This document shows, one piece after another, positions 1 through 25,657 of a stretch of 64,000 nucleotides of DNA (its first letter is position 1; each line of letters begins with the position of its first letter). The notes under the pieces are model-generated. The model was not told the DNA's origin. It made no database searches and saw nothing but the letters and a program-made list of their open reading frames with translations. Source of the stretch: a virus; IMG/VR virus record IMGVR_UViG_3300033145_002663, positions 1 to 64,000 of that record. The stretch is one strand, 5' to 3'. Made by a program: the position numbers and the translations under genes.

Positions 1-393
1 AGGGATAGATATGTAACTATACAGTTGGGAGGTGCTAATGATTTTCCAGCGTGGGCAAAAGTGGATCTTAGGGGCAAGCTCTCTTTTAGGGAAACTGCCT
101 GGGTTATGTCTAAAGCTTCTGTCGCTGTTACTGTTGATAGTTTTATTTCTCATCTTGCTGGTGCTCTGGGCGTTTCACAGGTGTGTTTGTTTGGCTCTGG
201 CAACAGCAATGTGGTTCGGCCAAATCAGGTCAAGGGAGAATTAGTCTGTATGATCCCGGATTATATTAGACATTGTAAAGGTTTGGGCCCGTGCTCTGCA
301 GCAGTCCGGGATTGCCCGGCAACGTGTACGGGCAGGCATGATCCAAAAGATATTTTAAAAGCAATCGAGAAAATCGAAAGGAGAGTTGAGTGA
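1..393 (+). CDS. Glycosyltransferase family 9 (heptosyltransferase-like), C-terminal part, cut by window edge
   Basis: The reading frame is open to base 1, so only the C-terminal ~130 residues are present. They show the GT9 nucleotide-sugar-binding half: LGGAND, then TVDSFISHLAGALGV and VCLFGSGN, the Rossmann-like segment seen in ADP-heptose:LPS heptosyltransferases. A Cys-rich tail follows (CKGLGPCSAAVRDCPATC). It probably transfers a sugar to a cell-surface or virion glycan. The stop overlaps the GTG start of the next gene, so it belongs to the decoration cassette. The family call is good; acceptor and sugar are unknown. Confidence 0.75.
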   Translation, partial: RDRYVTIQLGGANDFPAWAKVDLRGKLSFRETAWVMSKASVAVTVDSFISHLAGALGVSQVCLFGSGNSNVVRPNQVKGELVCMIPDYIRHCKGLGPCSAAVRDCPATCTGRHDPKDILKAIEKIERRVE

Positions 394-1094: not shown

Positions 1095-1989
1095 TTTTTA
1101 TGTTTATGCATGGCTTGATCCAAGAAAACCTGGGAAATATGTTTATGATAATTATTCTTTTAATTATGAGCCCTATTATATTGGAAAGGGTAAGAAATAT
1201 AGAAAGAGTACTTTGTGTAATAGAAATAATTTTACAATCAACAAGTTAAATAAAATAGAAAGAAATGGTTTTAAAAATAAAGTTTATATTGTTGAAAAAA
1301 AATTAATAGAGAAAAAGGCCTTTGATTTGGAATGCGAGTTGATTGCGCTTGTTGGAAGGTTTGATTTGGGGAACGGTCCATTAACAAATATGTCAGATGG
1401 AGGAGATGGGAATTCTGGTCATATACATACAGAAGAAACTTTAAATAAAATGAGGGGAAGACCGTCTTGGAATAAAGGCATTCCTTTGAGCGATGAATTA
1501 AAAAAACACTTATCTAAAATAAATACAGGGAAAACTCTTTCTGAGGAAACTAAAAAGAAAATACAAAAAGCTATGGAGGGGCGAATAGTTTCCGATGAGA
1601 CCCGTAAAAAGTTGAGGGTGGCAAGCACTGGCAGAAAACATTCTGAAGAAACAAAAAAGATGTATTCTAAAACAAGACGCGGAAAACCTAACGGAAGATT
1701 GGGGTGCAAACATACAGAAGCGACAAAGAAAAAAATGAGTGACGCTGTTAAAAATAGAGAAAAAAGAATTTATTCTGAAGAAGCAAAAAGGAATATGTCT
1801 CTTTCCAAAATGGGAAGCAAGAATCCTATGTATGGTAAACAAGTATCTGAAGAAACAAGACTAAAAACTTCTGAGTCTTTGAAGGGCAGAAGAAGGTCTC
1901 TTGAAACGAGAAGAAGAATGTCTGAAAGTAAAATGGGTGACAAAAATCCCATGTATAAAGGGGGCCGGTATGCTCAACATGCTCAATAA
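1081..1989 (+). CDS. GIY-YIG homing endonuclease with NUMOD3 repeats
   Basis: A 302-residue protein with a degenerate GIY-YIG nuclease signature at the N-terminus (VYAWLDPR, then YYIGKGKKYR around residues 33-42). About seven tandem NUMOD3-type DNA-binding repeats of the pattern SEETKKK(I/M)S...GRKHSEET follow, ending in MGDKNPMYKGG. It is much more AT-rich than both neighbours. It overlaps the preceding glycosyltransferase gene by 14 bases, and its last 20 bases contain the start of the next radical SAM gene. This is the footprint of a free-standing mobile endonuclease gene lodged inside an operon. Its role is self-propagation by cutting endonuclease-free relatives, not decoration. Confidence 0.9.
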   Translation: MEKNNFYVYAWLDPRKPGKYVYDNYSFNYEPYYIGKGKKYRKSTLCNRNNFTINKLNKIERNGFKNKVYIVEKKLIEKKAFDLECELIALVGRFDLGNGPLTNMSDGGDGNSGHIHTEETLNKMRGRPSWNKGIPLSDELKKHLSKINTGKTLSEETKKKIQKAMEGRIVSDETRKKLRVASTGRKHSEETKKMYSKTRRGKPNGRLGCKHTEATKKKMSDAVKNREKRIYSEEAKRNMSLSKMGSKNPMYGKQVSEETRLKTSESLKGRRRSLETRRRMSESKMGDKNPMYKGGRYAQHAQ

Positions 1990-2911
1990 GTTCACGTCAA
2001 CTGGTAAAAAAATCATCCACCATCCAGAAGTTATTAAGAGAATACAGCAGCATGGAATGGGCACACCAATCTCAGCTCAGATCGGAATAACGTCGCGTTG
2101 TAATTTAAAGTGCAGCTTCTGCTCAAACGCAAAAAGAAAAAAGCATGAAGACTTAGATCCCAAAGATATCATGGAGATTCTAAACGAGCTGAAGCATTTA
2201 GGATTAAAAACGGTAGAATGGAGCGGCGGCGGGGATCCGACCATGTATAAGGATATTAATTACGTCATGGAATCCGCTCATGCGATTGGCCTGCAGCAGG
2301 GTATGATTACTAACGGAGTATTTTTAAAGAAAAAAGTTGTCGCGAAGAATCTTAACCGGTTGGCATGGTTAAGGATATCTATGAACTGTCTTGATTACGT
2401 CTCCGATGTTGATGTTCCGGAAATTAAAGGTGTGCTCGGGTTTAGTTATGTCATGAATGAAAAGACCGATGTTCTTGTTCTTAGCAGGTTGCAGCACATG
2501 GTTGATAAATACAATCCGAAATATGTTCGGATAGTTCCCAACTGCCTTGCGACCAAAGAGCGACAGGAAATTAATAACAAAATATACGGTGATAAAATTG
2601 CAAAGTGGGGAGCGCCTTATTTTTATCAGGAAAAAATCTTTGACCGGCCCGATCATTGTTACTGGTGTTATTTCAAACCCTTTATACTGCACGACGGTTT
2701 TGTTTACCCGTGCAGCTCGGTTGTCTTGCATAGCGGAGCTGAGGGTAGATTCAATGATCAGTTTCGTTGGGTGAGGATGGAGGATCTTTGTGATGTTTAC
2801 GAGAAAGAAATGAGCCCGTTTCCGACCGACAATTGTGACCACTGCGTATTCAAAGATCAGAACGATTTAGTTGGGATGATTTTAAATCCTCAGATGGAGA
2901 ATTTTATATGA
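1970..2911 (+). CDS. Radical SAM protein with SPASM-like Cys-rich C-terminus
   Basis: Start chosen at ATG 1970 (a second ATG lies at 1979), behind AAGGGGG, although the frame is open further upstream inside the endonuclease gene. The protein has the [4Fe-4S]-binding CX3CX2C motif (SRCNLKCSFC, about residue 46) and the GGGDP SAM-binding loop. The C-terminal half carries extra cysteines (CYWCYFKP, YPCSS, NCDHC), suggesting auxiliary iron-sulphur clusters as in SPASM enzymes. The substrate is unknown. It is paralogous to the next gene, with which it overlaps by ATGA. Context suggests sugar or peptide modification for the glycan cassette. Confidence 0.85.
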   Translation: MLNMLNKFTSTGKKIIHHPEVIKRIQQHGMGTPISAQIGITSRCNLKCSFCSNAKRKKHEDLDPKDIMEILNELKHLGLKTVEWSGGGDPTMYKDINYVMESAHAIGLQQGMITNGVFLKKKVVAKNLNRLAWLRISMNCLDYVSDVDVPEIKGVLGFSYVMNEKTDVLVLSRLQHMVDKYNPKYVRIVPNCLATKERQEINNKIYGDKIAKWGAPYFYQEKIFDRPDHCYWCYFKPFILHDGFVYPCSSVVLHSGAEGRFNDQFRWVRMEDLCDVYEKEMSPFPTDNCDHCVFKDQNDLVGMILNPQMENFI

Positions 2912-3861
2912 AAAGACCATTTTCGCATACGTCAAACACTGTAAAGCTTTATAAGCACCTTGACCGTTTACAGAAATTACAGTCAGGTATTGTGTCTCCT
3001 ATTTTGATACACATGTCGCCAACCAACAAATGTCAAATGCATTGTTTTCATTGCTGCTTTAAAAATCGTAAAGACAAGACATTGGATATGCCTTTCGGAT
3101 CACTCAAAGAAGGTATGAGTCAATTTCACGAATTAGGCGCAAGGGCTGTCGAGCTGACCGGTGGTGGTGAACCGTCATTGTATTCTCATATAAACGAAAC
3201 AATCGAATTTTTAAAATTGGATTTAGGCATGCATATGGGGATAAACACCAATGCCCTGGAGTCGCAGCGCGTGAAGCATTGGGAGTACTTTGACTGGATC
3301 CGGGTTTCATTCAATACTTTGGATTTTTATGACACTATTAATATTGGGCCTATCCGTCAGTCAGGGGCGTATATTTCGGGTTGTTATATTTGGAATGATC
3401 TTACAACCATCGAAGTGTTTGAAAAGATTGTCAGGTTTGCAGACGAGCATAAGATTGTCTGTAGAATTGCTCCGGACTGTATCAGGCCATTGGAAGAAAT
3501 TGATGAACTGGTTGAAAAGGTCAGGGGTATTGTAGAGAGGTACGAGAGCGATTACATATTCCTTTCGGACTTTAATATTGACACCTATCGTCATAACACC
3601 AAGTGCTACCTGCACTTGATTAAGCCGTTTTTTTATACGGACGGGTACATTTATCCTTGCCCGAGCACGGAGTTGGTCCAGGAGCATAATTTTCAGGTAA
3701 ATCCGGATTATCGAGTATGTCGATATGATGAGGTTCTAAAATTTTACACAACGAACGCGTTGGATATACCGGAAAGAACCTGCTCATATTGCAAGTATGC
3801 CAAACAGCAAATTGTGCTTGAAGAAGTTTTAACCAAAACCACTTTTAATGAGTTTGCCTAA
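2908..3861 (+). CDS. Radical SAM protein, paralogue of the upstream one
   Basis: A 317-residue radical SAM protein with CX3CX2C (NKCQMHCFHC, near residue 45), a GGGEPSLY loop and a C-terminal cysteine set (KCYLHLIKPFFYTDG, YPCPS, CSYCKY). These match, position for position, those of the preceding protein. The pair thus looks like a tandem duplication that diverged, perhaps to act in sequence or as a heterodimer. It starts by ATGA overlap at 2908 and ends in TAATG with the next gene, so translation is coupled. Confidence 0.85.
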   Translation: MKRPFSHTSNTVKLYKHLDRLQKLQSGIVSPILIHMSPTNKCQMHCFHCCFKNRKDKTLDMPFGSLKEGMSQFHELGARAVELTGGGEPSLYSHINETIEFLKLDLGMHMGINTNALESQRVKHWEYFDWIRVSFNTLDFYDTINIGPIRQSGAYISGCYIWNDLTTIEVFEKIVRFADEHKIVCRIAPDCIRPLEEIDELVEKVRGIVERYESDYIFLSDFNIDTYRHNTKCYLHLIKPFFYTDGYIYPCPSTELVQEHNFQVNPDYRVCRYDEVLKFYTTNALDIPERTCSYCKYAKQQIVLEEVLTKTTFNEFA

Positions 3862-5126
3862 TGAAAAAAATTGAAAAAATAGTTTTAATTATTCCTCCGA
3901 GTCCCTGGTTAATATCAGACCGGGACATCCCGATGCTTGGCATTTTGTACGTCGCGGCACATATCAAACGTATATGTGAAGTTACGGTGTGTGACTTGTC
4001 GAGCATTCCCGAAGATCAGTGGTTTATTCCGGTGGGAGACCTGTACGGCATTACCGGTGTTAGCCCGCAATTTATATACATGAAGAAAATTATCGAAATT
4101 TTAAAACAAAGAGAACCCCACAAGCCTGTCATTGTGGGGGGTGTGCATGCAACGGTGTTGCCGGGTCATGTTTTAGAGGACACACTGGCCGATGCCTGTG
4201 TTTTGGGTCAGGGTGAGGACGTGCTGGCAAATATCATATTGGGGAATAGTTTAGAAATTTCAGGAGTGCAAACCAGAAGCAAGGGCGGGCATATCCAGAG
4301 AAATGGCGTGCCGTTTGTTTTCCCGGACAGGAGCGCCATAGATTACTACAGCTATCTCGTCCCGAGGACTTTTGGATATATGGCCGATGTAAAAAGAGAG
4401 GCGTCTATTATTACCGGGAGAGGATGCCCTTACTCGTGCGCTTTTTGTGCCAGTAAAAAAATGCACGGAACCAAGGTTCGGTTTAATCCCGCGCAGGCGG
4501 TCGTGAGCGAGTTCTTGTACTTAAGAGATGAATTCGGCGTTGAGATGGTTAACGTGCTTGATGATACCTTCATCCTCAATAAGAAAAGAGTGTATGAGAT
4601 TTGCCAGGGGTTAAAAGATCAGGGGATTAAATGGTTTTGCCTAACCCGGGCGGATTGTGTTGATAAGGAACTTCTTGTTGAAATGAAAAAAGCCGGGTGC
4701 TTGTCACTGGCCATAGGATTTGAAACCGGGTCCGATCGCTTGCTTCAATTGTTGAACAAAAAGATCACCATTGCTCAATGTAGAGAATGCGTGAAGATGG
4801 TGAGCAAAATCGGTTTTATGATAAACGGTCAGCTAATGACCGGTCTGCCCACGGAAACCATGAAAGACGTGGAACTTACCAGAAAATTTATTGAAGATAA
4901 TCCGGAGGTGGACACTTTTGGTTTGCATATGTTTCAGCCTTACCCAGGGTCCGACATATGGGAACATCCTGAAAAATACGATATTAAAATTGATAAGACC
5001 ACTGATTTTAGTGATTATCATACCATTGGAAAGCATGATGGTAAGTACCATAAAGATCAATTGCTCGATGAGAGATATCGATATTTAAAGACCGTTATTG
5101 GCAACAGGAGCCGCGAGCTTAGATGA
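3861..5126 (+). CDS. B12-binding radical SAM protein
   Basis: A 421-residue enzyme. Residues 1-150 resemble a cobalamin-binding Rossmann domain (PMLGILYVAAH, GGVHATVLPGHVLED, GQGEDVL), as in class B radical SAM enzymes. The radical SAM core follows with GRGCPYSCAFC (CX3CX2C, about residue 188) and the downstream GFETGS. Family members commonly methylate unactivated carbons or rearrange substrates. Its place among glycosyltransferases and methyltransferases suggests modification of a sugar or lipid-linked glycan. The substrate cannot be read from sequence. Confidence 0.87.
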   Translation: MKKIEKIVLIIPPSPWLISDRDIPMLGILYVAAHIKRICEVTVCDLSSIPEDQWFIPVGDLYGITGVSPQFIYMKKIIEILKQREPHKPVIVGGVHATVLPGHVLEDTLADACVLGQGEDVLANIILGNSLEISGVQTRSKGGHIQRNGVPFVFPDRSAIDYYSYLVPRTFGYMADVKREASIITGRGCPYSCAFCASKKMHGTKVRFNPAQAVVSEFLYLRDEFGVEMVNVLDDTFILNKKRVYEICQGLKDQGIKWFCLTRADCVDKELLVEMKKAGCLSLAIGFETGSDRLLQLLNKKITIAQCRECVKMVSKIGFMINGQLMTGLPTETMKDVELTRKFIEDNPEVDTFGLHMFQPYPGSDIWEHPEKYDIKIDKTTDFSDYHTIGKHDGKYHKDQLLDERYRYLKTVIGNRSRELR

Positions 5127-5857
5127 TAGATTATTGCACCATTCTTGTTCATGAAGGAGAGCGCGAGTTGCTGGCTATGCAGCTGCGGAGCCTGCGTCAT
5201 TATTCCGGTGACGAATTTAATTTTAAGGTCAGCGTGCGGCCGGAAGATACGGACTCGATAGAGTTTTGCAAACAGTTAGGCTTAGAGGTTTTATTGCACC
5301 CAACCTACACTCAAATGTTAGCACACCCCGGTTTGAGGCAGGCCGGGTTTGATTGCGCGAACCGTATGCATGAATTGATGAAATCCTGCACGTCGGACTG
5401 GGTTATTTTAACTCACTCCGACATTATATATACCGGAAAGATAGACATGGCTTTAATGACTGACGAATACGGCTTACTGGGGGTCTGGGCCCACGGATGT
5501 ACGGTTATAAACCGGAAAGTCTATAATGGTTGCCATTACCTCTTGTGGCCGATGGGGGGAATTCTTGCCAGACTGGTTTGCAGGCCATCAAAAGAATGGG
5601 ACGGTACGGTTAAACTTGTTGGCAACCATGAGCAGGAGGAAGAATTTTTAAGTGTTTCCGGGGTAGATGTTGGCGAGTTACTAAAGCTGGAAATGCAGGG
5701 CTATGGCTTCAAGTTTGATCCATCAGGGTTTTCAGGACGCTATCGTCACTTGGGAGGCGCATCTTTTCACGGCCTTACTCCTAAAGAAACAGACATTATA
5801 GAGGATATCATTGCCCGAAAAGCAGTTTTTATTGAAGAGTTCAAGGAGTTCAAATGA
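5123..5857 (+). CDS. Putative GT-A-like glycosyltransferase
   Basis: A 244-residue protein starting in an ATGA overlap. It carries a VILTHSDIIYTG segment (about residue 95) that resembles a DxD-type nucleotide-sugar site, and a later DVGELLKLEMQGYGF segment. Both occur in the same order in the product of 6534-7394 (IIFCHSDIIFRN and DIGELLEVMMIAYGW), so the two are paralogues. The N-terminus (DYCTILVHEGERELLAMQLRSL) resembles the first strand and helix of GT-A enzymes. Function is inferred from these traits and from neighbours. Confidence 0.55.
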   Translation: MIDYCTILVHEGERELLAMQLRSLRHYSGDEFNFKVSVRPEDTDSIEFCKQLGLEVLLHPTYTQMLAHPGLRQAGFDCANRMHELMKSCTSDWVILTHSDIIYTGKIDMALMTDEYGLLGVWAHGCTVINRKVYNGCHYLLWPMGGILARLVCRPSKEWDGTVKLVGNHEQEEEFLSVSGVDVGELLKLEMQGYGFKFDPSGFSGRYRHLGGASFHGLTPKETDIIEDIIARKAVFIEEFKEFK

Positions 5858-6522
5858 CCATTTATGTGTTTGGGGACAGCCATTCCAGTATGTTTAATGT
5901 AGATCACAGGCAACAAGAATCGAAGTTCAAAGTATCTCCGGAGGCCGTTGAGCATGAGGGTTTCGAAGGGTTTTTGGATGTTTCCTCCGGCGTCCCATTA
6001 GCTTATTCCCTTGCAAAGCATCATGAAGTTATCATGAAGGAATTGGAATCCATACCGTTTAAAGACGGCGATGAGATGTGGTTTATATTTGGCGAGATAG
6101 ATGTCAGGTTTCATATTTTTTACTGGCACCAGGAGCTGGAGATCTCGCTGGATGAATCCATCGATAATGTTGTTGTCAGGTATATTTCGTATGTAAAGAG
6201 ATTAAGAGAGATGGGGTATAATATCCACATCGTGAGCGTGGTTCCGCCACAACCGAATCCGTCTGCATTTCATAATGATCCGACCCTTGAGGTTCTCAAT
6301 CCGATTAGAGGTGATGGCATTACCGTTGCGGACAGAGTGTATATGACAGAGAGGTTAAACTCCGAACTCAGCAAGGCGTGCGCTGAAAATAACATACCGT
6401 TCAGGGATGTTCATCAATTTATAGTGGATCCGATTACCAGGTGCAACATTCCGGAAATGACCAGGGATAATATGCACTATTATTACATAGGTGATCTTAT
6501 TATTGAAAAATTCGGTTTATAG
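5854..6522 (+). CDS. SGNH/GDSL-like hydrolase or esterase
   Basis: A 222-residue protein that opens with IYVFGDSHSSMF, a GDSH block I as in SGNH hydrolases and O-acetyl esterases. Its C-terminus has a conserved-looking DNMHYYYIGD, placing Asp and His of a block V-like D-x-x-H near the end. A middle segment GEIDVRFHI may be the block with Gly. It could add or remove acyl groups on the glycan. It overlaps the upstream gene by ATGA. The assignment rests on the two end motifs. Confidence 0.65.
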   Translation: MTIYVFGDSHSSMFNVDHRQQESKFKVSPEAVEHEGFEGFLDVSSGVPLAYSLAKHHEVIMKELESIPFKDGDEMWFIFGEIDVRFHIFYWHQELEISLDESIDNVVVRYISYVKRLREMGYNIHIVSVVPPQPNPSAFHNDPTLEVLNPIRGDGITVADRVYMTERLNSELSKACAENNIPFRDVHQFIVDPITRCNIPEMTRDNMHYYYIGDLIIEKFGL

Positions 6523-6533
6523 AGGAGACTTTT

Positions 6534-7394
6534 ATGATAGATCTTTGCGTTTTTTTTGCAGGCCAGAACCTCGATGCGTACGCGCCGTTGTTCCTGGAAA
6601 CATTGTATCAAAACTGCGACACGTCGAATCTCTGTGTTCATGTGGTGGAGAAGGGCGGCATCTATTATAACGGACCGGAGCGCGATCCGGGCGATCCGTG
6701 GTACACGTCGCTTCCGATTCAGTATTATGTTCCGGGTGTTGGCGATAATGTTCATGAGTATTTACTCCAAAAGCAAAATGAGGTGAATACACCGTTTACA
6801 ATTTACGAAAAGCACGACCCCAGCGAATTTTTTACAAAAACAAGACCGGGTGAACCGTTTTGGCATTTCGGGGATGATCATGGCAATACCTTAAACTGGG
6901 CAATCGAGAATTGCGGTACAAACAAGTGGATCATATTTTGTCACTCGGACATAATTTTTAGAAACGATGTGATCACCCGGTTCCAGGAGGAGATGTTTGA
7001 CTGGGTTGGTATGTTTGGCATTTACAATCATTGCTATGCTGTAAACCGGGAAGCATTTTCTAGAGTCGGCATAAAATTTAACTGTGTTACCAATTTCAGG
7101 GTGGTCCCGGTTAAGCACATCGGTTTTGATTATCAGTTAAAACACGCAGGTGATCCGAAATGCCCTGCGGATGCAAAGGTAGTTTACGGTTTTGATATTG
7201 GCGAATTGCTGGAAGTTATGATGATCGCTTATGGCTGGCATTGTGATGTATCAAACGTGCATCCTTTTTGTTCGAGCCTTGACCATATGGCGTCGGGTCA
7301 CGGGTATGTAAATGAAGTGACAAGAACACATCAGGAAAAACGGAGGCAGGCATGGATGAAGGAGTACGACATACAGAAAGTTACGATGAAATAA
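6534..7394 (+). CDS. Putative GT-A-like glycosyltransferase, paralogue of 5123-5857
   Basis: A 286-residue protein with a good ribosome site (AGAGGAG) before ATG 6534. An N-terminal LYQNCDTSNLCVHVVEKGG strand-helix pattern is followed by WIIFCHSDIIFRND near residue 130 and YGFDIGELLEVMMIAYGW near 220. These are shared with the upstream paralogue. The HSDII core may serve as the metal/nucleotide-sugar site. It is likely one of several transferases building a short glycan. Confidence 0.55.
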   Translation: MIDLCVFFAGQNLDAYAPLFLETLYQNCDTSNLCVHVVEKGGIYYNGPERDPGDPWYTSLPIQYYVPGVGDNVHEYLLQKQNEVNTPFTIYEKHDPSEFFTKTRPGEPFWHFGDDHGNTLNWAIENCGTNKWIIFCHSDIIFRNDVITRFQEEMFDWVGMFGIYNHCYAVNREAFSRVGIKFNCVTNFRVVPVKHIGFDYQLKHAGDPKCPADAKVVYGFDIGELLEVMMIAYGWHCDVSNVHPFCSSLDHMASGHGYVNEVTRTHQEKRRQAWMKEYDIQKVTMK

Positions 7395-7410
7395 AGGGGT
7401 TTATTAAACT

Positions 7411-7938
7411 ATGAAACTTCATATCGGTACGGGTACCACATATTTACCGGGCTGGATCAATGTCGATGTTTTTTCTTTTGTAAACGCGGATGTTTATTCA
7501 AACGCGATGAACCTGCCATACGAGAGAGAATCGTTCGATTTGATTTATTCCAGCCATGTTCTTGAACATTTTAATCGGCATATGATCCTGGCAGTGCTTG
7601 GCCACTGGCGAAGCCTGTTAAGACCGGAAGGAATTTTAAGGTTGTCGGTCCCTGATTTTAAAGCGATCTGTGAATATTACAGTAAAACAAAATCTTTAAA
7701 GCCGGTGACAGGATTGCTTTATGGCGGCCAGAGGCATCTTTTAGATGTTCATCGCATTTGTTTTGACAAGGAAACTTTGCTTTCCTGTTTAAGTTCTGTT
7801 GGATTTCAAATCGTTAGGGAATGGGACTGGAGAGAAACGGAACATGCAAAATTTGATGATTACAGTCAGGCGTATCTTCCGCATCTTAAAAAAGACACGG
7901 GTCTTTTGATGTCTTTGAATTTGGAGGCTGTTAAATGA
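7411..7938 (+). CDS. Class I SAM-dependent methyltransferase
   Basis: A 175-residue protein of the Methyltransf_11/predicted SAM-methyltransferase type often seen in polysaccharide loci. Motif I is short (LHIGTGTTYLPGWINVDV), then FDLIYSSHVLEHF (motif II region, about residue 48) and LLRPEGILRLSVPDF (motif III). It likely methylates a sugar of the glycan built by the neighbours. It ends in ATGA overlap with the next gene. Confidence 0.85.
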   Translation: MKLHIGTGTTYLPGWINVDVFSFVNADVYSNAMNLPYERESFDLIYSSHVLEHFNRHMILAVLGHWRSLLRPEGILRLSVPDFKAICEYYSKTKSLKPVTGLLYGGQRHLLDVHRICFDKETLLSCLSSVGFQIVREWDWRETEHAKFDDYSQAYLPHLKKDTGLLMSLNLEAVK

Positions 7939-9155
7939 TTTCTTTTTATCACGTAGCACCCGGGAACGAGTATTATACAATCATGTATCGAAAACCATTG
8001 TGCAAGTTTTGTCAAAAGAATGGAATTCCGTTCGAGGAGGTTAAAGATTTTTTAGCGGTAAAAAATTCTACGCTCGTAATACTGGGGGATCATTTAGCTC
8101 CCGAGATGATTACCAGGATTAAAAATAACGGCAATGTTCTGGTAGTGTTTGATATCAATGATAACTCGGTTCTCACCGGAACATACGGCGATTCTGATGA
8201 AGTGGCTTTGATAGATTTAATCTTTAAGATATCCGGTGTCCAGAAAACACAGGAGTCTTATGAAGTTTGCATTGATAATGATTTGAACTATACGCGCGAA
8301 AAGAAGAAGTTCCAGGGCGGTAACTGGGGAAAATATTTTGATATGGTTGCTGCGAATAAAATTAAAAGCCTGCCGTATCCGTCCTGGGATAAGAAAAACG
8401 CAGCGAATACTCCGTGGGCAGAGCGTCACAAATTAGTCCTGGTCCGTGGTGGGCATCATTATTGCCGGGTTCATTTGTTTTTGCATCTTCTGTCTTTAGG
8501 ATTGCTGGATGGAAATTCCATGTTTCCGGCGAGTGAGTATGCCTTTCAATTTTGCGAAGATTGCAGGAGACTTTTTGATCGTGACGGAAAGATCACGTTT
8601 GAGCACTTAAAGGATCATCCGGACATGCAGTGCCGTTTAAAGAACTGGCCGTACAATTTCAATGAAAATGGAGGTCTTTGGAATAACAGTTGTATTCCCA
8701 GGTATTTTGATTTGGCAGAATTGTTTCTTAAAAAGCATGGCGGTTTTGACCTGAGTGCCGTTGAAAGTGCGTTTCAGGGAAAATTTGCCGGTCCCGGATG
8801 GAAGAATGAAATTTTAAACAGGTATTTATTCTATGCGGATTTTAAATGGATCTTTTCGATATACGCGCCCCCAAGATTCTGGGAGGCGGCGGAAGCATGT
8901 ACGATCAGCCTGGTTCCGGAAAGAATGAACGACCAGGAGTTTTTTCCGCCGATGCGAGACGGAGATCATTATATTACGTATAAGGAAGATTTTTCTGACC
9001 TGAGAGAATCTTTCGAAATCGGCCAGGAACAGTTTGAGCATATCACTAATAACTGTTTGGAGTTGTATGATAAATGGATACTTGGAAATGATGATTATCG
9101 GGTGTCTCCAAATTTACTGTCATACATTATTCAAGAGATTAAGAGTGTCGAATGA
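7935..9155 (+). CDS. Putative glycosyltransferase-like protein of the decoration cassette
   Basis: A 406-residue protein I do not recognise with certainty. The C-terminal part, with ISLVPERMNDQEFFPPMRDGDHYITY followed by DLRESF, resembles the sugar-nucleotide half of GT-B or exostosin-like transferases. There a gradual DHYI-Y---FSDL block follows a Pro-rich loop. The N-terminal part has a Rossmann-like LVVFDIND. It overlaps both neighbours by four bases, so it is co-translated with the methyltransferase and the pyruvyl transferase. Confidence 0.4.
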   Translation: MISFYHVAPGNEYYTIMYRKPLCKFCQKNGIPFEEVKDFLAVKNSTLVILGDHLAPEMITRIKNNGNVLVVFDINDNSVLTGTYGDSDEVALIDLIFKISGVQKTQESYEVCIDNDLNYTREKKKFQGGNWGKYFDMVAANKIKSLPYPSWDKKNAANTPWAERHKLVLVRGGHHYCRVHLFLHLLSLGLLDGNSMFPASEYAFQFCEDCRRLFDRDGKITFEHLKDHPDMQCRLKNWPYNFNENGGLWNNSCIPRYFDLAELFLKKHGGFDLSAVESAFQGKFAGPGWKNEILNRYLFYADFKWIFSIYAPPRFWEAAEACTISLVPERMNDQEFFPPMRDGDHYITYKEDFSDLRESFEIGQEQFEHITNNCLELYDKWILGNDDYRVSPNLLSYIIQEIKSVE

Positions 9156-9931
9156 GAATTATTAATGTTTTTGATAAAGACGAACCTCGCGCGGGTGATA
9201 TTTACTCCGGACCCTATCAGTATTTCGACTGGCCCTTAGAGATTGAACCTATGACTTCGAGGGTTCTTGAAGATATACCGTTCGAGGATGAAAATGTCTT
9301 CTTTATTTTTGGCGGCGGCGGGATGCTGCATATTCCATTCCCAGAATATGATCAGGGTCGGTTCTTACTGCTTGAACGGTTTTGCGAGGTGGCGGATCGT
9401 ACGGCCTTATGGGGTATCGGTCATAATGTTCATGGTGCTGAAAAGATTGAATATCCGGAATACATAAAAAAATTTATTGCCGTAGGAGTAAGAGATTGGA
9501 ACCAGGGAATTAGATGGGTTCCATGCGCAAGTTGTATGCATGAGGTATTCCATAAGACTTATGAAGTTAAAGATGAGATCAGAGCTTACCGGAGAGAAGA
9601 TCCGTGGCCTTTCCCGTTTGATCATTACCCGATGCTTCAGGATGCTAACGGATATCCCCTGGAGAGTATCGTAGAATTTCTTGGCGGTGCCGAGACTGTC
9701 ATTACCAATTCATACCATGGAGCTTACTGGTCGATGCTGCTGGGCCGTAAAGTAACAATTCACAAACCTTTTGCTTCTAAATTTTTCGGGCTCACCGATC
9801 GCTATGAGTTTGATGGTGAGAACATTGTTATACCGGTACATGAGAATTTTTATGAGCAGTGCGTAACCGCGAACGAAGCGTTTCACTCTAACGTTGTGGA
9901 TCAATTGAGGATGCGTTTTGGACTTTTATGA
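9152..9931 (+). CDS. Polysaccharide pyruvyl transferase family protein
   Basis: A 259-residue protein with the family pattern: FIFGGGGMLHIPF near residue 50, ALWGIGHNVHG near 85, AVGVRDWN near 110 and the C-terminal ITNSYHGAYWSMLLGRKV near 190. Members transfer pyruvate from PEP to sugars, giving acidic ketals on surface polysaccharides. At 259 residues it is shorter than the usual 330-400. The conserved Cys-rich insertion CASCMHEVF sits in the middle. In context it would put a charged group on the phage- or lysogen-encoded glycan. Confidence 0.8.
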   Translation: MRIINVFDKDEPRAGDIYSGPYQYFDWPLEIEPMTSRVLEDIPFEDENVFFIFGGGGMLHIPFPEYDQGRFLLLERFCEVADRTALWGIGHNVHGAEKIEYPEYIKKFIAVGVRDWNQGIRWVPCASCMHEVFHKTYEVKDEIRAYRREDPWPFPFDHYPMLQDANGYPLESIVEFLGGAETVITNSYHGAYWSMLLGRKVTIHKPFASKFFGLTDRYEFDGENIVIPVHENFYEQCVTANEAFHSNVVDQLRMRFGLL

Positions 9932-10538
9932 TCAAGATTATTATGAGCGAGGTTTAGAAACCGGTAAGAGCTGCTATCAGAATTACCGTTGGATACCTGA
10001 GCTCACGATTCCTATGGCCATGGCCATAATCGACTATCTTGACATTAAGCCTAACCAAAAAATTTTGGATTACGGCTGCGCAAAGGGCTTTCTGGTAAAG
10101 GCGTTTCGTTGGCTGCGGCGTGAGGCCTGGGGCGTGGACGTTAGTGAATACGCATTGTCCAACTGTGATTCTGAAGTTCAAGAATATTGCCTGTCTCCAG
10201 TGGATTATGACTACTTCGGTCCTGACCCGGTAGACGTTGTGATTGCCAAGGATGTTTTTGAACATATCTCGTTGACGGTTTTGTCTGATATCGTCAGCGA
10301 GAGGGATTGTCTGATTTTTGCGGTAATTCCCCTGGGGGATAACGGAACATACAGGGCGCCGGCCAACAACATGGACCCGACGCATATTACCTGCATGGAC
10401 GAGGACGAGTGGAAAGCGTTTTTTAATCATCATAACCTGATCGTAGAACAATTCACATTTAAGGTGGATGGAATTAAAGATAGTTATTACGATCAATACC
10501 CAACCGCTCATGGTTTTTTTACTTTGAGGAGGAGATGA
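9918..10538 (+). CDS. Class I SAM-dependent methyltransferase
   Basis: A 206-residue protein starting at TTG 9918 inside the end of the pyruvyl transferase gene, eight bases after TGAGG. The N-terminal YYERGLETG motif, KILDYGCAKGFLVKAFR (motif I, about residue 50), WGVDVSEYA (motif post I) and VIAKDVFEH fit Methyltransf_23-type enzymes. They methylate sugars or small molecules. It closes the decoration cassette; the tail module begins directly after it. Confidence 0.83.
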   Translation: MDFYDQDYYERGLETGKSCYQNYRWIPELTIPMAMAIIDYLDIKPNQKILDYGCAKGFLVKAFRWLRREAWGVDVSEYALSNCDSEVQEYCLSPVDYDYFGPDPVDVVIAKDVFEHISLTVLSDIVSERDCLIFAVIPLGDNGTYRAPANNMDPTHITCMDEDEWKAFFNHHNLIVEQFTFKVDGIKDSYYDQYPTAHGFFTLRRR

Positions 10539-19109: not shown

Positions 19110-19720
19110 GTTTTTCTACATTTAAAGACAAGTATGTTTTTCATTTATTTCCGTATTGGACTGAGAATCCGAAAGATTCGTTCGCTCATGGCTTTGAGGA
19201 ATTTGAAGGGTTCGGTTATACGGCAGGTGAAGAGGTTGAAACATACCCGCGCTATCGAACAAACTTGCAATATATTTTTAGAACCAGAGCTAAGATCAGC
19301 GAAGTAAACGATCTGTTTGACAATCGGCTGGGAATGTTGGGGGCTTTATGGTTTCCGTCTTTTCAAAAGGACATTGTTTTAACGTCTGATATTGGATCGG
19401 CGGATCTTAATATCAGCATTGAAGACATCGAGTACAGCACTTTTTATCCTGCGACTCCCGGGACCGGGCGTTATATATTTATTTATGTTAATTCAAATAA
19501 GTGGTTTGCCAGAAAAATAATAGGAGCTCCGTCCTCCACTCTCTTGACCATGGAGTCTTCCCTGGGAGAAGCCGTAACAATGGCAAGGGTTAAGATGGTT
19601 TCAATTTTATATTTAGGCCGATTTGATATCGATGAGATTGAATGGGAGTATGTCACTCCGGATATTGCAACAACAGATTTATATTTTATTGAACTTCCTA
19701 ACGAGTACGCGGACTTATGA
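19106..19720 (+). CDS. Minor tail protein, similar in layout to the preceding one
   Basis: A 204-residue protein beginning in an ATGA overlap. It has a conserved-looking TNLQYIFRTRAKISEVNDLFD helix, then LGALWFPSFQKDI in the place where the upstream protein has HVPIWPYE, then the beta strands. The two look like distant paralogues, probably both baseplate ring proteins. Confidence 0.6.
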   Translation: MSFSTFKDKYVFHLFPYWTENPKDSFAHGFEEFEGFGYTAGEEVETYPRYRTNLQYIFRTRAKISEVNDLFDNRLGMLGALWFPSFQKDIVLTSDIGSADLNISIEDIEYSTFYPATPGTGRYIFIYVNSNKWFARKIIGAPSSTLLTMESSLGEAVTMARVKMVSILYLGRFDIDEIEWEYVTPDIATTDLYFIELPNEYADL

Positions 19721-20556
19721 AATCTTCACCATCAGCAACTTTTACAAATAATGAAGAAGGTACGGAACGCCGACCTGCAGAGTTATTCCATATCTGGAGG
19801 GGTTCCACCCACTGGAGATATACCAGCGGACTTAATCCAATTGTTTACAATGGAAACACTTATGTTCCGGGTCCGATTATGAGACAAACAATTCAGCATG
19901 ATAGTGATATTGCGGCGGATACCGTAACAATAACTTGTGCTCGAACCATGCCGCCATTTTCAGAGTATGGAGCTAATATGGCGATAGATAGTGTTTGGAT
20001 TACGATCTATAATGTGTTTTGGGATCAAAGTCCGATTGAAGCTTCACCTATTTTTTCGGGTTTAGTGGAAAAAATATCAGCCCAGGGCCCTGCTTATAGT
20101 ATCCCCTGCGTGTCTTTAGAATATGTCCTTCATAGATCCGTTCCAAGATATAGATATCAACCGGGTTGCAATCATACAATCTACAGTGCCAGGTGCGGGG
20201 TAACTGAAGCAACCTATCAAATAACAGCCACGGTAGACAGTATCAGTGCCAGTGGGTTTGTTTTAACATTATCCGGGGCAACCTTTGAGAGCAATGCGGC
20301 GCCTTATTATCTTCTTGGTAATTTATATTTCGGGGATCACAAACGTATGATCGTGGATCATTCGGGGTTAACGGTAACCATGAGATATGCTTTGGTTACT
20401 TTAGAGGCAGGAAGTTCAGTTATAGTTTCGGCAGGATGTGATAAATTAAAAGAAACCTGTCGGGATAAATTCGATAACATGGTTCATTATTTCGGGTTTC
20501 CCTATATTTCTTTTGAGAATCCAGTTCTAAGAACTTTTTCAAAACCGGTGTACTAA
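19717..20556 (+). CDS. Tail protein with DUF2163/BR0599-like region
   Basis: A 279-residue protein. The C-terminal part has GCNHTIYSARCGV, SAGCDKLKETCRDKF and VHYFGFPYISFENP, the Cys-rich signature of phage BR0599/DUF2163 proteins that sit between distal tail genes and the NlpC/P60 peptidase. In related phages they are hub components (gene transfer agents have the same order). It overlaps both neighbours by a few bases. Confidence 0.8.
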   Translation: MKSSPSATFTNNEEGTERRPAELFHIWRGSTHWRYTSGLNPIVYNGNTYVPGPIMRQTIQHDSDIAADTVTITCARTMPPFSEYGANMAIDSVWITIYNVFWDQSPIEASPIFSGLVEKISAQGPAYSIPCVSLEYVLHRSVPRYRYQPGCNHTIYSARCGVTEATYQITATVDSISASGFVLTLSGATFESNAAPYYLLGNLYFGDHKRMIVDHSGLTVTMRYALVTLEAGSSVIVSAGCDKLKETCRDKFDNMVHYFGFPYISFENPVLRTFSKPVY

Positions 20557-21026
20557 TGGAATGGTATTTTACAGAAACAGAACGGCAGTTACAATTGAAA
20601 GCAATTATTGATTCATGGATTAACACCCCGTTCCGGCATCGATGTGCTGTAAAGGGTAAGCAGGGCGGTGTGGATTGCATCCATTTTTGTGCGGAAGTGT
20701 ATAAGGAATTAGGGGTGATAGATAGTTATAATATTCCTGAGTACGCTCCGGATTGGCATCTTCATCGTACAGGCGAAAAATTATTGCTTGGCATTTTTAA
20801 TTTTGCAGACTCACATCCAACGGGCACTTTAAAAAGTGTTGGGTACGCAAATCCAAAAAATGGGGATGTAATTATGTTTCAGTATGGCAGGGCTTCAGCT
20901 CATACGGCCATATATTATGAGAATCGAGTGTATCAGGTATTGACCGGTATGCGAGTAGAACCCCGACCATGGAATGATGCAACCACTAACTTTAGAAAAC
21001 AATATGGATTGAGGGTATATGAGTAG
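20556..21026 (+). CDS. NlpC/P60-type tail peptidase
   Basis: A 156-residue protein with the Cys of the NlpC/P60 triad in GGVDCIHFCAEV (about residue 38) and the His in RASAHTAIYYE (near 125). Length fits a single catalytic domain. It probably cuts peptidoglycan peptides during DNA injection or acts in tail maturation. It lies between the DUF2163 and tail-tip genes, as in GTA-like and many siphovirus tails. Confidence 0.85.
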   Translation: MEWYFTETERQLQLKAIIDSWINTPFRHRCAVKGKQGGVDCIHFCAEVYKELGVIDSYNIPEYAPDWHLHRTGEKLLLGIFNFADSHPTGTLKSVGYANPKNGDVIMFQYGRASAHTAIYYENRVYQVLTGMRVEPRPWNDATTNFRKQYGLRVYE

Positions 21027-22368
21027 CTGGACTAATTTTTTTATTGCTGGATTTGCCGGTATAATAGGATTTATTGCTTCCGGTTTTAATCCCTATGTCG
21101 GAATGTTGACATTTTCTCTGGTCGCAGGAGTTGCGTCTTATATTAATCCTGTGACCCCTGATGTAGATTCTCCCGGGCAACCACAAATAGGTCAGCTTCA
21201 TATTGCAACGGCTTCGGAAGGAACGATCATTCCCGATGTTCTCGGCACGATTAAAACCACCGGTAATATTTTCTATTTTTTTGGAGATCGTAATGAAGAA
21301 GTTATGACAGAGGTTGAGGGAGGGAAAGGTGGTGCATCAGGCGAGGAATTTCTTTCCGGTTATAAATATTTTTGCTCCTGGCTTGTGGGTATTTGCTTAG
21401 GACCGGTGGATACTCTTTATGCCGTATATGCGGGGGATACTTTAGTTTGGGCGGGGGAGCTTGATTGTCCGGCCTCCGGTGGAGAAGAAACCATTACATT
21501 AGGCAATTTAGAGCCGGAACTTACCGGGAAAGAAGTTACTCATCATCATGATGTAACACATGTGTGCGAGCATTCCGGGAGCACAATAAAAGTTGTTACT
21601 CAACCCCCAGATCCCTGGCTGGATGCAACAGGAGAGTCAGCCCTCACTCCCTATGGTGTGGAATATATTAGTGGGACAATTTCTGCGGATTGGTACGATG
21701 CCACCAATGAATTTTTATATACCAAAACCGCTGTTATTCTTAACAGGACGTTTTCTCTCCTTGCACCATGCGCATCGATGGCCGACGCTCTAATGGGGAT
21801 AAATAATTTAACAGTTAATTCAGACCCTTTCAGCGATTCAGCTTATCAATATAAAAATGCCCAGTTACATTTAGTATTTCGATACGAGTACGATGAATCA
21901 GAAACTGCGACTTCAATGGGGTCGATGACATTTTATTTTGGTACGGATGATCAGGTAGCGAATAGTACTGTCGGGGGCTCCTTGGCGGACGGTACGCTTA
22001 ATCCCGCATACCGTGGATTATGCTATGCGTTTTTTAATGATAATTATATTGGCAGAAACAACGGTGCGCCCACTATGCGGTTTGTTGTTGGAAAACGTCC
22101 GAAGTATGCGTTCAGTGCTTTAGAATCTATTAATGCTTACGATTATAACATTGCACATGCGATTTATCATATTTTAGTAAATGACATGCATTTAGGTTTG
22201 GGTACCGATTTAATTGGTAATGCCACTTTTGCCCAGGTAGCCGCGACCTTAAGTGGTGAGGGCAGGGGAATCAGTGCGTTAATTGGTACACAGCAATCTG
22301 CCAGCACATATATTGAGGCTTTTTTACTTCATGGAGGAGGGATGCTTACGAGCAGCTCAGACGAATGA
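21019..22368 (+). CDS. Tail tip/hub protein, N-terminal part of a split gene
   Basis: A 449-residue protein with an N-terminal hydrophobic stretch (residues 5-45), then features of GTA/lambda-J-like tip proteins (IGQLHIATASEGTIIPDVLGT, RTFSLLAPCASMADALMG, NIAHAIYHILVNDMHLG). It stops after LLHGGGMLTSSSDE. In related tip proteins this point is followed by a DG.(F/L)KL(I/L)R-D strand. That strand is found here at the start of the RCC1 gene (22627), and the C-terminal hub domain is in 23905-25299. So the ancestral gene appears to be broken. Confidence 0.75.
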   Translation: MSSWTNFFIAGFAGIIGFIASGFNPYVGMLTFSLVAGVASYINPVTPDVDSPGQPQIGQLHIATASEGTIIPDVLGTIKTTGNIFYFFGDRNEEVMTEVEGGKGGASGEEFLSGYKYFCSWLVGICLGPVDTLYAVYAGDTLVWAGELDCPASGGEETITLGNLEPELTGKEVTHHHDVTHVCEHSGSTIKVVTQPPDPWLDATGESALTPYGVEYISGTISADWYDATNEFLYTKTAVILNRTFSLLAPCASMADALMGINNLTVNSDPFSDSAYQYKNAQLHLVFRYEYDESETATSMGSMTFYFGTDDQVANSTVGGSLADGTLNPAYRGLCYAFFNDNYIGRNNGAPTMRFVVGKRPKYAFSALESINAYDYNIAHAIYHILVNDMHLGLGTDLIGNATFAQVAATLSGEGRGISALIGTQQSASTYIEAFLLHGGGMLTSSSDE

Positions 22369-22664
22369 TAGCCTATAAATGTAAATGCGGTGCGACTTCT
22401 TTTAATGGAGTTGAGTGCCCGGTGTGCAGCTCAAAAGACTTGATTATTATTAAGGAGACTAACGGTGTTCGAATATTAAAGAAATGGGAAGATGGAACGG
22501 TGGTAGTTTTATTTCCATTTCCTGTTGCAAATCACCTGCATGACCCGGGTTTTTGGAATTTGCTTATCAGTGAAAGAATTTATACTGAAGGTCATGTATT
22601 AATGAACTACTTGGACGAATTGGAAAATGAGTCACTCATTCAAACTAAAATTATTAAGAGATGA
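22365..22664 (+). CDS. Small zinc-ribbon protein interrupting the tail-tip gene
   Basis: A 99-residue protein starting in ATGA overlap. Two CxC/CxxC knuckles (YKCKCGATSFNG, VECPVCSSKD) form a zinc ribbon, followed by an alpha/beta domain (VANHLHDPGFWNLLISERIY). No family recognised. It lies between two parts of what seems to have been one tail-tip reading frame and overlaps the RCC1 gene by 38 bases. A short GACGAAT repeat lies near both ends. Confidence 0.65.
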   Translation: MIAYKCKCGATSFNGVECPVCSSKDLIIIKETNGVRILKKWEDGTVVVLFPFPVANHLHDPGFWNLLISERIYTEGHVLMNYLDELENESLIQTKIIKR

Positions 22665-23901
22665 TATTGCTTTAGCTTCCATACCGGATTTACCAAGCAA
22701 TGCTTTATTGTCTCCACCCGTAGTAACTCGAAAGTCATTAATTGGTTGTGTTAATGATGTACGAGTTAATTATGTTTTGAGAGTTGGATTGCCTGATATA
22801 TCCATTTCTTACCTTTCGTGCGATTATAGTGTTGCACAGGTAGTTTTGTCTAATGGCACTATTTACACTTGGGGGGATGGATGGTGTGGCCAATTAGGGA
22901 ATAATACGGATGATGAGGTTTTAAGTTCTGCCCCTGTAATCCCGTATGGCGATCATAATTTTATTTATGGTGGAATTTATCCTGAGCATGCTTGGGGTAT
23001 AGATGATCAAGGACAATTATGGTGTTGGGGAGAAGGGGATAATGGGGAATATGGCGATGGAAGTCACGGTAGTGTAGAATACCCTATAGAAGGAGGAATT
23101 GGTTATTTTTTCTCAAAAGTTCGTATGGGTGGTCGGCATACTATGGGTTTAGAATCTGGTACTGGAAAGTTGTATGGTTGGGGATATCAAACAGGTGGGG
23201 ATCCCGCACAAGGGGAATGTGGTTTAGGTCCGGCATATACTCCTATTGAGGGATTAATTGTCCTGCTTCCAGTACAGGAATATTTAGGCAAAACAGATTG
23301 GGTAGACGTTTGGTGTGGTTGGAACTTTTCAATTGCGATTGATTCTTCGGGAAGATTATGGGGGACAGGCAATAATGGATGTAGTTGTATTGGTCAACCG
23401 GGCGAAAGTGGTGGTCATCAAATTCAATTCACACAAATAGGCACTGATACAGACTGGGCAAAGGTAAGAGTTGGGGATTGTCATTGTTTAGCTCAGAAAA
23501 ATAATGGAGACGTTTATTATTGGGGTACAAATACTTCTGGGCAGTTTGGCGATGGTACTGCGAAGTATACCGGTGAAACGTATACCCCAGTAAAGATGGA
23601 GATCCCCGATGTCCAAGATTTTATGTGTGGAGCGTTCTTTTCTGCCATCCTGAAATCCGATGGGACTTTATGGATGGCTGGAGAAAACTCAGCAGGGCAA
23701 TTAGGACTTGGATATAGGCCAACTGATGTCTTAATATATACTCAAATAACGAATTGCCCAGCATTTTCAAAGATAGCAGAGCAGGGAGAAGCCCACATGC
23801 TGGCAGTTACTGAAGATAACCAAGTTTATGAATGGGGTTATACAATGGACGGGTATTATACGGTACCTACATTAGTAAACTTTGATTTTACAGGAAGTTA
23901 A
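22627..23901 (+). CDS. RCC1-like beta-propeller fused to a tail-tip segment
   Basis: A 424-residue protein. Residues 1-53 (SFKLKLLRDDIALASIPDLPS.. to VNDVRVNYV) match the small protein at 25296-25463 and fit the strand missing from the split tail-tip protein. Residues ~60-420 form six or seven RCC1-type blades with repeated WGDGWCGQLG, WGEGDNGEYGDG, WGTNTSGQFGDG and MAGENSAGQLGLG. RCC1 propellers bind proteins or glycans. On a tail tip it could act in receptor contact. Neighbour order supports a virion role. Confidence 0.8.
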   Translation: MSHSFKLKLLRDDIALASIPDLPSNALLSPPVVTRKSLIGCVNDVRVNYVLRVGLPDISISYLSCDYSVAQVVLSNGTIYTWGDGWCGQLGNNTDDEVLSSAPVIPYGDHNFIYGGIYPEHAWGIDDQGQLWCWGEGDNGEYGDGSHGSVEYPIEGGIGYFFSKVRMGGRHTMGLESGTGKLYGWGYQTGGDPAQGECGLGPAYTPIEGLIVLLPVQEYLGKTDWVDVWCGWNFSIAIDSSGRLWGTGNNGCSCIGQPGESGGHQIQFTQIGTDTDWAKVRVGDCHCLAQKNNGDVYYWGTNTSGQFGDGTAKYTGETYTPVKMEIPDVQDFMCGAFFSAILKSDGTLWMAGENSAGQLGLGYRPTDVLIYTQITNCPAFSKIAEQGEAHMLAVTEDNQVYEWGYTMDGYYTVPTLVNFDFTGS

Positions 23902-23904
23902 AAA

Positions 23905-25299
23905 ATGGCAATTGGAGTAAATGTAAAAGAATCTGTTGTAATGTCTGAAGACCTGGGCAGTAAACAGGTGGTCGGAACTATTCATAAATCCGCACGGTTT
24001 ATGCTGTTCACAACCACACCGAATGCTCAGTGGGCGGCGGACAGAATTATACAGGAGAATGCTTATCCTTTTGCGGATGTTGTAATTGAAACAAACCGTA
24101 AATTATTTCGATATATGCCGGGGGATGTTTTTAGGCTCACCTATGCTCGTTATAGCGAGAATTTGATCTTGCGGGTTTTAAATATACAGGAAGAGGATTT
24201 ATTGTCCGGAAAAATTATTGTTTCCTGCATCGAGGATCCTCGATATGCAGGTCAGTTAATTCCAGCGGATACCATGGACATTCCCGTTGGAGAGGGTGAT
24301 GAAGGACCCACTCAATTCCCGTTAGAACCGCTCGACAATTTTACAATCAAGGAAGCTCCCTACGTGCTTGTCGGAGATGAAATTAAAATCATTACCCTGG
24401 TGGGCAGAGAAAAAGGGTACGAGGTTGGGTATGCTTTGTACATGTCCATTGACGATGGGGCTTCATTCGCCAAGATTCAGGATGCAACTTCTTTTGCGGT
24501 TCATGGTACATTGGCATCTGCTTACACGGACCAGACCAATATTATTGATGACGATGTAGGCTTTGATGTCATTATTGAGACAGATGCGGATGCAATTCAG
24601 AGTGTTACCAGGGATCAGTTATTTACGGCAACAAATTTGGCGGTTATACATAATGAAATCGTTACCTTCCAGACCATTACGCCTTATGGCTCTGATAACA
24701 AATATAAGATTGAAGGCATTTATAGAATGAGATGGGGGACAGATCAGGTTCATCATTCAGTCGGAGAAGATTTTTATTTTATTGGTGGCGGAAGGTATGA
24801 AATTTTAACGAATGTCGAATTTGTTTTAGGCGCTCAGATTTATTTTAAGGTCGTTCCTTACTCAGGATATACAATAAGTGCTATAGAGTATGCCATGCCA
24901 AAATACATTGAGTTGGCAGGGACTGCCAGGGAACCTTATGATCCGTGCAATTTAATAGCGAATGGCGTTGCCTTAGATCCTACGTACTCTACCAATATAG
25001 ATCTTGCCTGGAATCCAAGGGTTAGGGGCGATGGCGCAGGTCTTGAAAATCCGGATTATTATACAGATGCTGAAAATACATGGGAAGGTTTGTTTGAAGT
25101 GCAAGTGTGGGTGTCTTCCTCGCTGGTTCGTACAATAACAGGGATCGATAATGATCATTATGTATATACCGAAGCTATGAATTTAATAGACAACGGCAGT
25201 TTAGCCGGCTCGATTGAGTTCTGGCTGCGTAATTATATCGATGTTAGTGGTCAGACATATTATTCGGCATGGGTTAAAAGAACGGTAACTAAGATATGA
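23905..25299 (+). CDS. Tail tip/hub protein, C-terminal part of a split gene
   Basis: A 464-residue protein beginning shortly before SKQVVGTIHKSARFMLFTTT, then WAADRIIQENAYPFADVVIETNRKLFRYMPGDVFRLTY. In intact GTA-like/tip proteins this block lies mid-protein (repeated strand then NR-LF---PGD). The start ATG 23905 is only four bases after the RCC1 stop, with a weak ribosome site, so expression may depend on coupling. The C-terminus is beta-rich with FN3-like strands (IEFWLRNYIDVSGQTYYSAWV). Confidence 0.75.
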   Translation: MAIGVNVKESVVMSEDLGSKQVVGTIHKSARFMLFTTTPNAQWAADRIIQENAYPFADVVIETNRKLFRYMPGDVFRLTYARYSENLILRVLNIQEEDLLSGKIIVSCIEDPRYAGQLIPADTMDIPVGEGDEGPTQFPLEPLDNFTIKEAPYVLVGDEIKIITLVGREKGYEVGYALYMSIDDGASFAKIQDATSFAVHGTLASAYTDQTNIIDDDVGFDVIIETDADAIQSVTRDQLFTATNLAVIHNEIVTFQTITPYGSDNKYKIEGIYRMRWGTDQVHHSVGEDFYFIGGGRYEILTNVEFVLGAQIYFKVVPYSGYTISAIEYAMPKYIELAGTAREPYDPCNLIANGVALDPTYSTNIDLAWNPRVRGDGAGLENPDYYTDAENTWEGLFEVQVWVSSSLVRTITGIDNDHYVYTEAMNLIDNGSLAGSIEFWLRNYIDVSGQTYYSAWVKRTVTKI

Positions 25300-25463
25300 G
25301 CACAACATTCAAATTAAAATTATTAAGAGAGGATGTACCCCTTGATTCTATCCCGGAATTGCCGAGTGAGGTTTTGTTGTCAGCACCCGTAATAACTCGT
25401 AAGAACCCTCAGGCATTGATTAATGATGTCCGTGTAAACTTTGTGAAAAGAATTGGGGAATAA
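25296..25463 (+). CDS. Small protein, duplicate of the tail-tip middle segment
   Basis: A 55-residue protein starting in ATGA overlap with the hub gene. It reads FKLKLLREDVPLDSIPELPS then VLLSAPVITRK and INDVRVNFVKRIGE. About 60 percent of its positions match the first 53 residues of the RCC1 protein, and the DNA is also visibly similar. It ends where the RCC1 domain begins in the other copy. It could complement the split hub as a separate strand or be a leftover of duplication. Confidence 0.75.
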   Translation: MSTTFKLKLLREDVPLDSIPELPSEVLLSAPVITRKNPQALINDVRVNFVKRIGE

Positions 25464-25465
25464 AA

Positions 25466-25657
25466 ATGAAACGACAATTACCGGATAAAATATATTTAAT
25501 CCTGGAAGAAACTTTTGACAAAATTATTGAGGAATTAGGTGAGAATGAAATTCATGGTCATAAATTTCATATGGTCGAGAGAGAATTCAGGTTTATGATA
25601 CGGAATAAACGGCATGAAGCGAGGAAATCATGGCAACAACAACTAAATATGGTTTAG
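25466..25657 (+). CDS. Unknown small basic/acidic helical protein
   Basis: A 63-residue protein directly after the 25463 stop, with helical LPDKIYLILEETFDKIIEELGE and a basic C-terminus (FMIRNKRHEARKSW). It overlaps the next gene by 28 bases. Position in the tail-fibre region suggests an assembly accessory. No motif. Confidence 0.5.
   Translation: MKRQLPDKIYLILEETFDKIIEELGENEIHGHKFHMVEREFRFMIRNKRHEARKSWQQQLNMV

Follow-up and report, generated by a model that had tools for sequence, protein, structure and literature searches.

Phage hubs form a structurally conserved tail core. The lambda hub comprises up to three polypeptides, gpL, gpI and gpJ (PMC10721106, PMC13243795). Like the hub described here, those of lambda (gpL, gpI and gpJ; PMC10721106, PMC11101478) and RcGTA (gp13 and gp15; PMC7296036) are made of several polypeptides and carry inserted decoration domains; in both, the divisions lie upstream, between HDI, plug and HDII, whereas the present locus has two breaks within the Phage-tail_3 core, which split it into N-terminal (N), middle (M) and C-terminal (C) parts. 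JBD30 gp53 (Pseudomonas phage; PDB 8rk3; PMC11445458) and its intact Yuavirus homologues share the predicted fold and the N-M-C order, with sequence kinship to gp53 running through Yuavirus PAC9, but are single chains that carry no cargo between M and C and have no extra M copies. We place the locus within the established siphophage hub type (JBD30 gp53, lambda gpJ) as a variant form, not as a separate kind of system.

A β-propeller takes part in host recognition in the phi11 RBP, and modular phage RBPs, phi11 included, share with this locus a conserved anchor and a swapped binding domain (PMC4901313). Here, in contrast, a segment from inside the hub core takes the part of the anchor, in place of a fibre, and one operon holds several versions of it; the phi11 propeller also belongs to a family other than the RCC1-type propeller and resides in another protein. 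A literature search, covering few subscription papers, returned no report of such a split or of a free-standing, multi-copy hub plug.

Hub genes of the window

The window, the whole 64,000-base stretch analysed here, covers positions 1-64000 of a virus contig that is 92,469 bases long; functions outside the hub are assigned by eye unless a specific search is named. From 5′ to 3′, a tape measure gene, two minor tail genes, a DUF2163-type hub gene and an NlpC/P60 gene precede N, a zinc-ribbon ORF, M1-RCC1 and C (Table 1), following the order expected of siphophages (tape measure, distal/minor tail, DUF2163, NlpC/P60, hub). The N, M and C genes are tightly packed, some of them overlapping, and each possesses its own start codon and an intact frame. 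M1 and the RCC1 propeller form a single gene (22627-23901). The three hub ORFs, the zinc-ribbon ORF and the sequence strings quoted from them in a preliminary description of this DNA were all recovered at their positions. The zinc-ribbon ORF has no match in Pfam or PHROG.

Table 1. Features of the hub region in the window
Feature	Coordinates	Strand	Evidence
DUF2163-type hub/attachment protein, upstream neighbour (GTA gp13 / lambda gpL counterpart)	19717..20556	+	Pfam PF09931 E 1.5e-16, PF09356 E 5.7e-14; phrog_778
NlpC/P60 peptidase, upstream neighbour	20556..21026	+	Pfam PF00877 E 1.8e-6
N, N-terminal part of tail-tip hub	21019..22368	+	phrog_1101 E 1.2e-38, last match to column 295; N profile
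Zinc-ribbon ORF, 99 aa, between N and M1; possible companion gene (putative role)	22365..22664	+	Sequence; relatives have companions at similar positions
M1, hub middle segment (plug)	22627..22776	+	M profile E 3e-23; fills phrog_1101 gap; aligned to intact hubs
RCC1-type β-propeller cargo fused to M1	22777..23901	+	Pfam RCC1-like; AF2; Foldseek
C, C-terminal part of tail-tip hub	23905..25299	+	phrog_1101 from column 355, E 2.4e-44; Pfam Rcc01698_C E 8.4e-10
M2, second, cargo-free middle segment, 55 codons, start overlaps C stop	25296..25463	+	M profile E 4e-23
Small helical ORF, 63 aa, after M2; possible companion gene (putative role)	25466..25657	+	BLAST E 4e-8, 2e-9 to ORFs following M genes in L021

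Ahead of the tail genes, ~10 kb on the same strand (390-10538) encode, by eye, glycosyltransferases, radical-SAM enzymes, methyltransferases and a polysaccharide pyruvyl transferase, which, on these by-eye assignments, are unusual cargo for a tail operon. An ORF inside that cluster (1081-1989) resembles, by eye, a GIY-YIG-type endonuclease with repeated NUMOD-like motifs.

The middle segment in intact and split hubs

Relatives were collected by scans with DUF2163, C and N alignments, yielding several dozen contigs (L numbers) that were annotated with N, M and C profiles. A search with the C part alone found only L002 among viral contigs and none in genomes, and one with the N part alone found no close relatives; a DUF2163 alignment scanned against genomes returned no more than two contigs, both from MAGs and one of them allelic to L018. 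The M alignment is too variable to serve as a search query.

Both N and C are homologous to phrog_1101, an intact tail protein of 1405 columns, and C also matches Rcc01698_C, its match to Phage-tail_3 (PF13550) falling below the Pfam cut-off. The two phrog_1101 matches leave a gap of ~60 columns, with N stopping at column 295 and C beginning at column 355. The preliminary description had located the strand expected after N at the start of the RCC1 gene (SFKLKLLRDDI..NDVRVNYV), and this is the stretch that fills the gap. The segment, M, measures ~50 residues. In the intact hubs of Yuavirus PAC9 and Xanthomonas phage Elanor, the M profile match falls exactly between N and C; the PAC9 counterpart reads GMLYTRPDNGQ for the end of N, FVVKLIREDY..NEIVVTYRPQG for M and STEDDSVTVQDL for the start of C, with the same neighbours on either side. 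M is naturally fused to N (~25 contigs), to C (L065) and to both (L035, L046, L066 and Yuavirus), and also occurs free-standing, with or without cargo, where N, M and C are separate genes. In L065, N is separate and MSIKFKLELLRSGD..NEVKIQYAQ is followed by ~45 aa and then C. At the sequence level, nothing supports a place for M between N and C more strongly than these natural fusions to N, to C and to both.

AF2 modelling of the naturally fused L035 hub as a single chain (36 aligned rows) places the N/M break in a hairpin turn between strands 143-147 and 153-157, with moderate confidence (mean pLDDT 65, pTM 0.45) and a weakly predicted last M strand. Foldseek top matches of this model are the hub proteins of JBD30, Chi, T5, DT57C and lambda, with JBD30 gp53 (PDB 8rk3) first (E 9e-25). 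M by itself is predicted to be disordered. The Phage-tail_3 core corresponds to lambda J 330-498 (Pfam), and the breaks cut into it. Pfam Phage-tail_3, combined with an alignment by eye and a weak profile match, places the display slot near lambda J 403-412, a different loop from that holding the OB insertion of gpJ (483-569); lambda gpJ failed to map onto the N-M profile (E 0.17) and matched the C profile weakly (E 0.01).

The relatives follow four plans. In the first, the hub is one gene, which lacks an insert in Yuavirus, Elanor and L078; in L035, L046 and L066, M and C are separated by an insert of ~230 to 490 aa. The second, an N-M-cargo gene followed by a C gene, is represented by ~25 non-redundant contigs with cargo of 64 to 553 aa. 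The third expands the second to two or three M-bearing genes: L043 has three N-M-cargo genes and L074 two, and L018 and L073 each encode a bare N2-M followed by N2-M-cargo. The fourth, with N, M and C separate, comprises the window, L002, L010, L013, L019, L021, L032 and L065. The N part of the intact Elanor hub (L007 3633-6404) contains an inserted von Willebrand A domain, which marks another decoration site. In L010 (3045-4082), and also in L011, a 345-aa gene lies between NlpC/P60 and N.

In a C tree of 39 rows, from which L013 was left out (cut before C) and in which L034 represents L010, the fourth plan forms one clade of seven rows (bootstrap 100, SH-aLRT 98). Since it is a single clade, the second hub break would most simply have happened once and been kept thereafter. 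The core domain is found on three genes, not on one polypeptide, in the window and throughout this clade. All its members are metagenomic contigs, and among the matches listed for 206 and 219 phage records no cultured phage with M split from C was noticed. The L021 and L010 arrangements are partly repeated in second samples (L020, L011), as is that of L018 in a MAG (L028).

The preliminary description took the hub gene to be broken by two insertions, and a hub in pieces with two unrelated ORF contents between them is indeed what would remain if zinc-ribbon and RCC1 insertions had broken the gene in a decaying prophage and left pseudogene fragments. That origin is very improbable and close to refuted: the plan is inherited across the clade at 35-61% identity, every piece retains its start codon and frame, and N, M and C look constrained between relatives, with 0.25-0.31 nonsynonymous against 0.76-0.84 synonymous differences per site. 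The zinc-ribbon ORF, counted as one of the insertions, stands where relatives have small companion genes. Comparison lends good support to the other part of the earlier interpretation, a hub that would be modular and split and would display a β-propeller. It had also raised relatives with separate N and C genes and no intervening strand; N and C are separate in several relatives, yet M is present wherever the locus is seen far enough, between them, beside them or, in L019, upstream of N. L019 may be misassembled at a Ser-rich repeat.

A split confined to the genes, with frameshifting, ribosomal bypassing, splicing or an intein-like event rejoining the pieces into one chain, might be suspected from L002, L010, L013 and L021, where the N stop and M start lie a few bases apart. 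We reject it as exceedingly unlikely: the pieces all have start codons of their own, N and M1 are separated by an entire ORF in the window, M2 lies after C, and two or three M genes occur in series.

M copies, cargo and companion genes

Searching the contig with the M segment revealed M2 (61% identical, E 1.5e-18), which the preliminary description had overlooked along with the small helical ORF behind it. The M2 start overlaps the C stop codon (ATATGA), the gene ends just past the NDVRVNF strand, and nothing else is encoded; over 109 bp, M1 and M2 are 76% identical. This plan recurs in the nearest relative, L002, which has N, M plus 105 aa, C, and M plus 390 aa. Two or three M genes are present in all six fully visible loci with separate N, M and C, and several M genes thus occur in 6/6 such loci versus 4/25 loci with fused N-M and separate C (Fisher p 3e-4, kinship not corrected). 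Bare M genes occur in the window, L013, L021 and L032, and L002 and L010 have cargo-bearing M genes only. Among the loci seen, no genome has more than three M-bearing genes, a number that equals that of the hub subunits and may be a coincidence. In L018 (10239-11605) and L073 (9821-11716), the break lies elsewhere, inside N, and an N2-M module is duplicated into one bare and one cargo-bearing copy, paralleling the M2/M1 pair of the window.

The cargo of M1 is certainly an RCC1 propeller, with RCC1 repeats (Pfam E 1.5e-49 and 2.4e-49) and a propeller fold matching UVR8, HERC2 and RCC1 (Foldseek E ~1e-20). It belongs to the RCC1-like family by fold alone, and a role as nucleotide exchange factor is not expected in a phage tail. 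AF2 of M1-RCC1, from a thin alignment, gives a good propeller for residues 160-418 and M without a fold. RCC1 propellers are also the cargo in L016, L021 (twice) and L043; a few other cargoes match BNR, Sortilin/Vps10, Kelch or SprB, and many have no Pfam match. Short-repeat cargo, (R)ITQEVVEVLR-like with Ser-/Thr-rich linkers, is present in L032 (3327-4007), L041 (1007-1198), L065 (4937-5536), where two jelly-roll-like genes follow it, and L073 (10757-11716); such cargo may provide docking tails for separate adhesins.

Cargo differs between otherwise close relatives. L042 and L049 are 97% identical over the last 140 residues of N-M and 96% over C, and their cargoes (382 and 464 aa) have no similarity; L041, with 64 aa of cargo, is a third swap case. 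At the DNA level, the 93% identity ends 10 nt past the last M codon and returns at the C start codon; the exchange of cargo is confined precisely to the stretch from M's end to C's start. Across L050-L053, whose flanks are nearly identical, 57 of the 82 variable columns fall in the cargo, with 21, 20 and 13 changes at codon positions 1, 2 and 3. The L050 and L053 cargoes differ at pN 0.061 and pS 0.050, as against pN 0.013-0.024 and pS 0.28-0.30 for N-M and C of L042 and L049, and paralogues within L043 and within L074 retain 58-77% identity in N-M versus 26-30% in the cargo. By these comparisons, cargo evidently evolves faster than its flanks. A swapped, fast-changing slot is the behaviour expected of a receptor-binding slot, making the cargo a putative binding domain. 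The nearly identical L050-L053 differ almost only in a domain that is LamG-like by eye (L053 8350-8890).

The bias toward codon positions 1 and 2 would fit either diversifying selection or recombination. Concentration of variable sites in the cargo and at these positions could also point to a diversity-generating retroelement, an explanation with hardly any likelihood: the variable bases are not of one kind, and neither a reverse transcriptase, by simple motif scan over all loci, nor a template copy, by self-repeat searches on three loci, was found in the stretches retrieved.

Small ORFs accompany the cargo. In L019, L033, L036, L037, L039 and L044, mutually BLAST-related ORFs, each combining a helical part with a zinc ribbon, lie near cargo genes, and the cargoes of these six loci end in Y-x-W-x-C (H-W-G-C in L044). 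The zinc-ribbon ORF of the window, for which no relatives were detected, occupies the place of such small companion genes; the 63-aa ORF after M2 is related to the ORFs behind the first two M genes of L021. We suggest that these small ORFs may be chaperone-like, on the model of tail-fibre assembly proteins.

Proposed assembly of the tip and its significance

We consider it probable that the hub is tripartite, with N, M and C as three polypeptides and M as an exchangeable plug displaying a probable receptor-binding domain. A hub of the JBD30 gp53, lambda gpJ and GTA gp15 kind would thus be made in three chains that assemble into a threefold hub. As in intact hubs, the first M strand would form a hairpin with the last N strand and, past a linker, the last M strand would lead into C; M, whose size is insufficient for an independent domain, would fold only inside the hub, between N and C. 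The loop past the last M strand would serve as the display slot, from which the M1 propeller would project at the tip and most likely bind the host surface. M2 would be an empty plug competing with M1 for the same sites, so that tips could mix propeller-bearing and empty positions.

In another arrangement, N, C and the bare M2 make the working hub, and M1-RCC1 is not a tip component, its M being merely a recombination anchor or the protein acting elsewhere, for instance secreted or host-directed. M2 alone could complete a hub, the M1/M2 similarity speaks for it, and L065 keeps a separate M-cargo gene despite having M fused to C. This arrangement is nevertheless unlikely, as ~25 relatives carry cargo covalently fused to N-M with no bare M seen, L002 and L010 have only cargo-bearing M genes, and L035, L046 and L066 hold cargo inside a single hub chain. 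The bare M2 could also be a leftover of cargo loss. At L065 7650-9326, M is joined directly to C by the ~45-aa linker, with another M-cargo gene present too, which complicates the tripartite picture; M-cargo may not just fill an empty slot.

More tentatively, the tripartite hub may extend to a heteromeric, multi-cargo tip, in which a free plug of ~50 residues in two or three versions per genome would let one virion present different or no display domains in the same slot of its threefold hub, cargo cassettes being shuffled together with small companion proteins. The layout itself leads one to expect mixed tips in a single phage. With several unrelated domain types found fused to it, the ~50-residue M represents a natural split-protein anchor. 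Annotation pipelines overlook these pieces: neither N nor the zinc-ribbon ORF matches any Pfam family, and M2, at 55 aa, is shorter than a usual ORF cut-off. With the core cut at two loops, the middle piece would become an interchangeable connector, and since cargo and gene end together, the cargo can be exchanged while the hub core stays intact, which would give these phages a natural route to changing the display domain while leaving the rest of the tail as it is.
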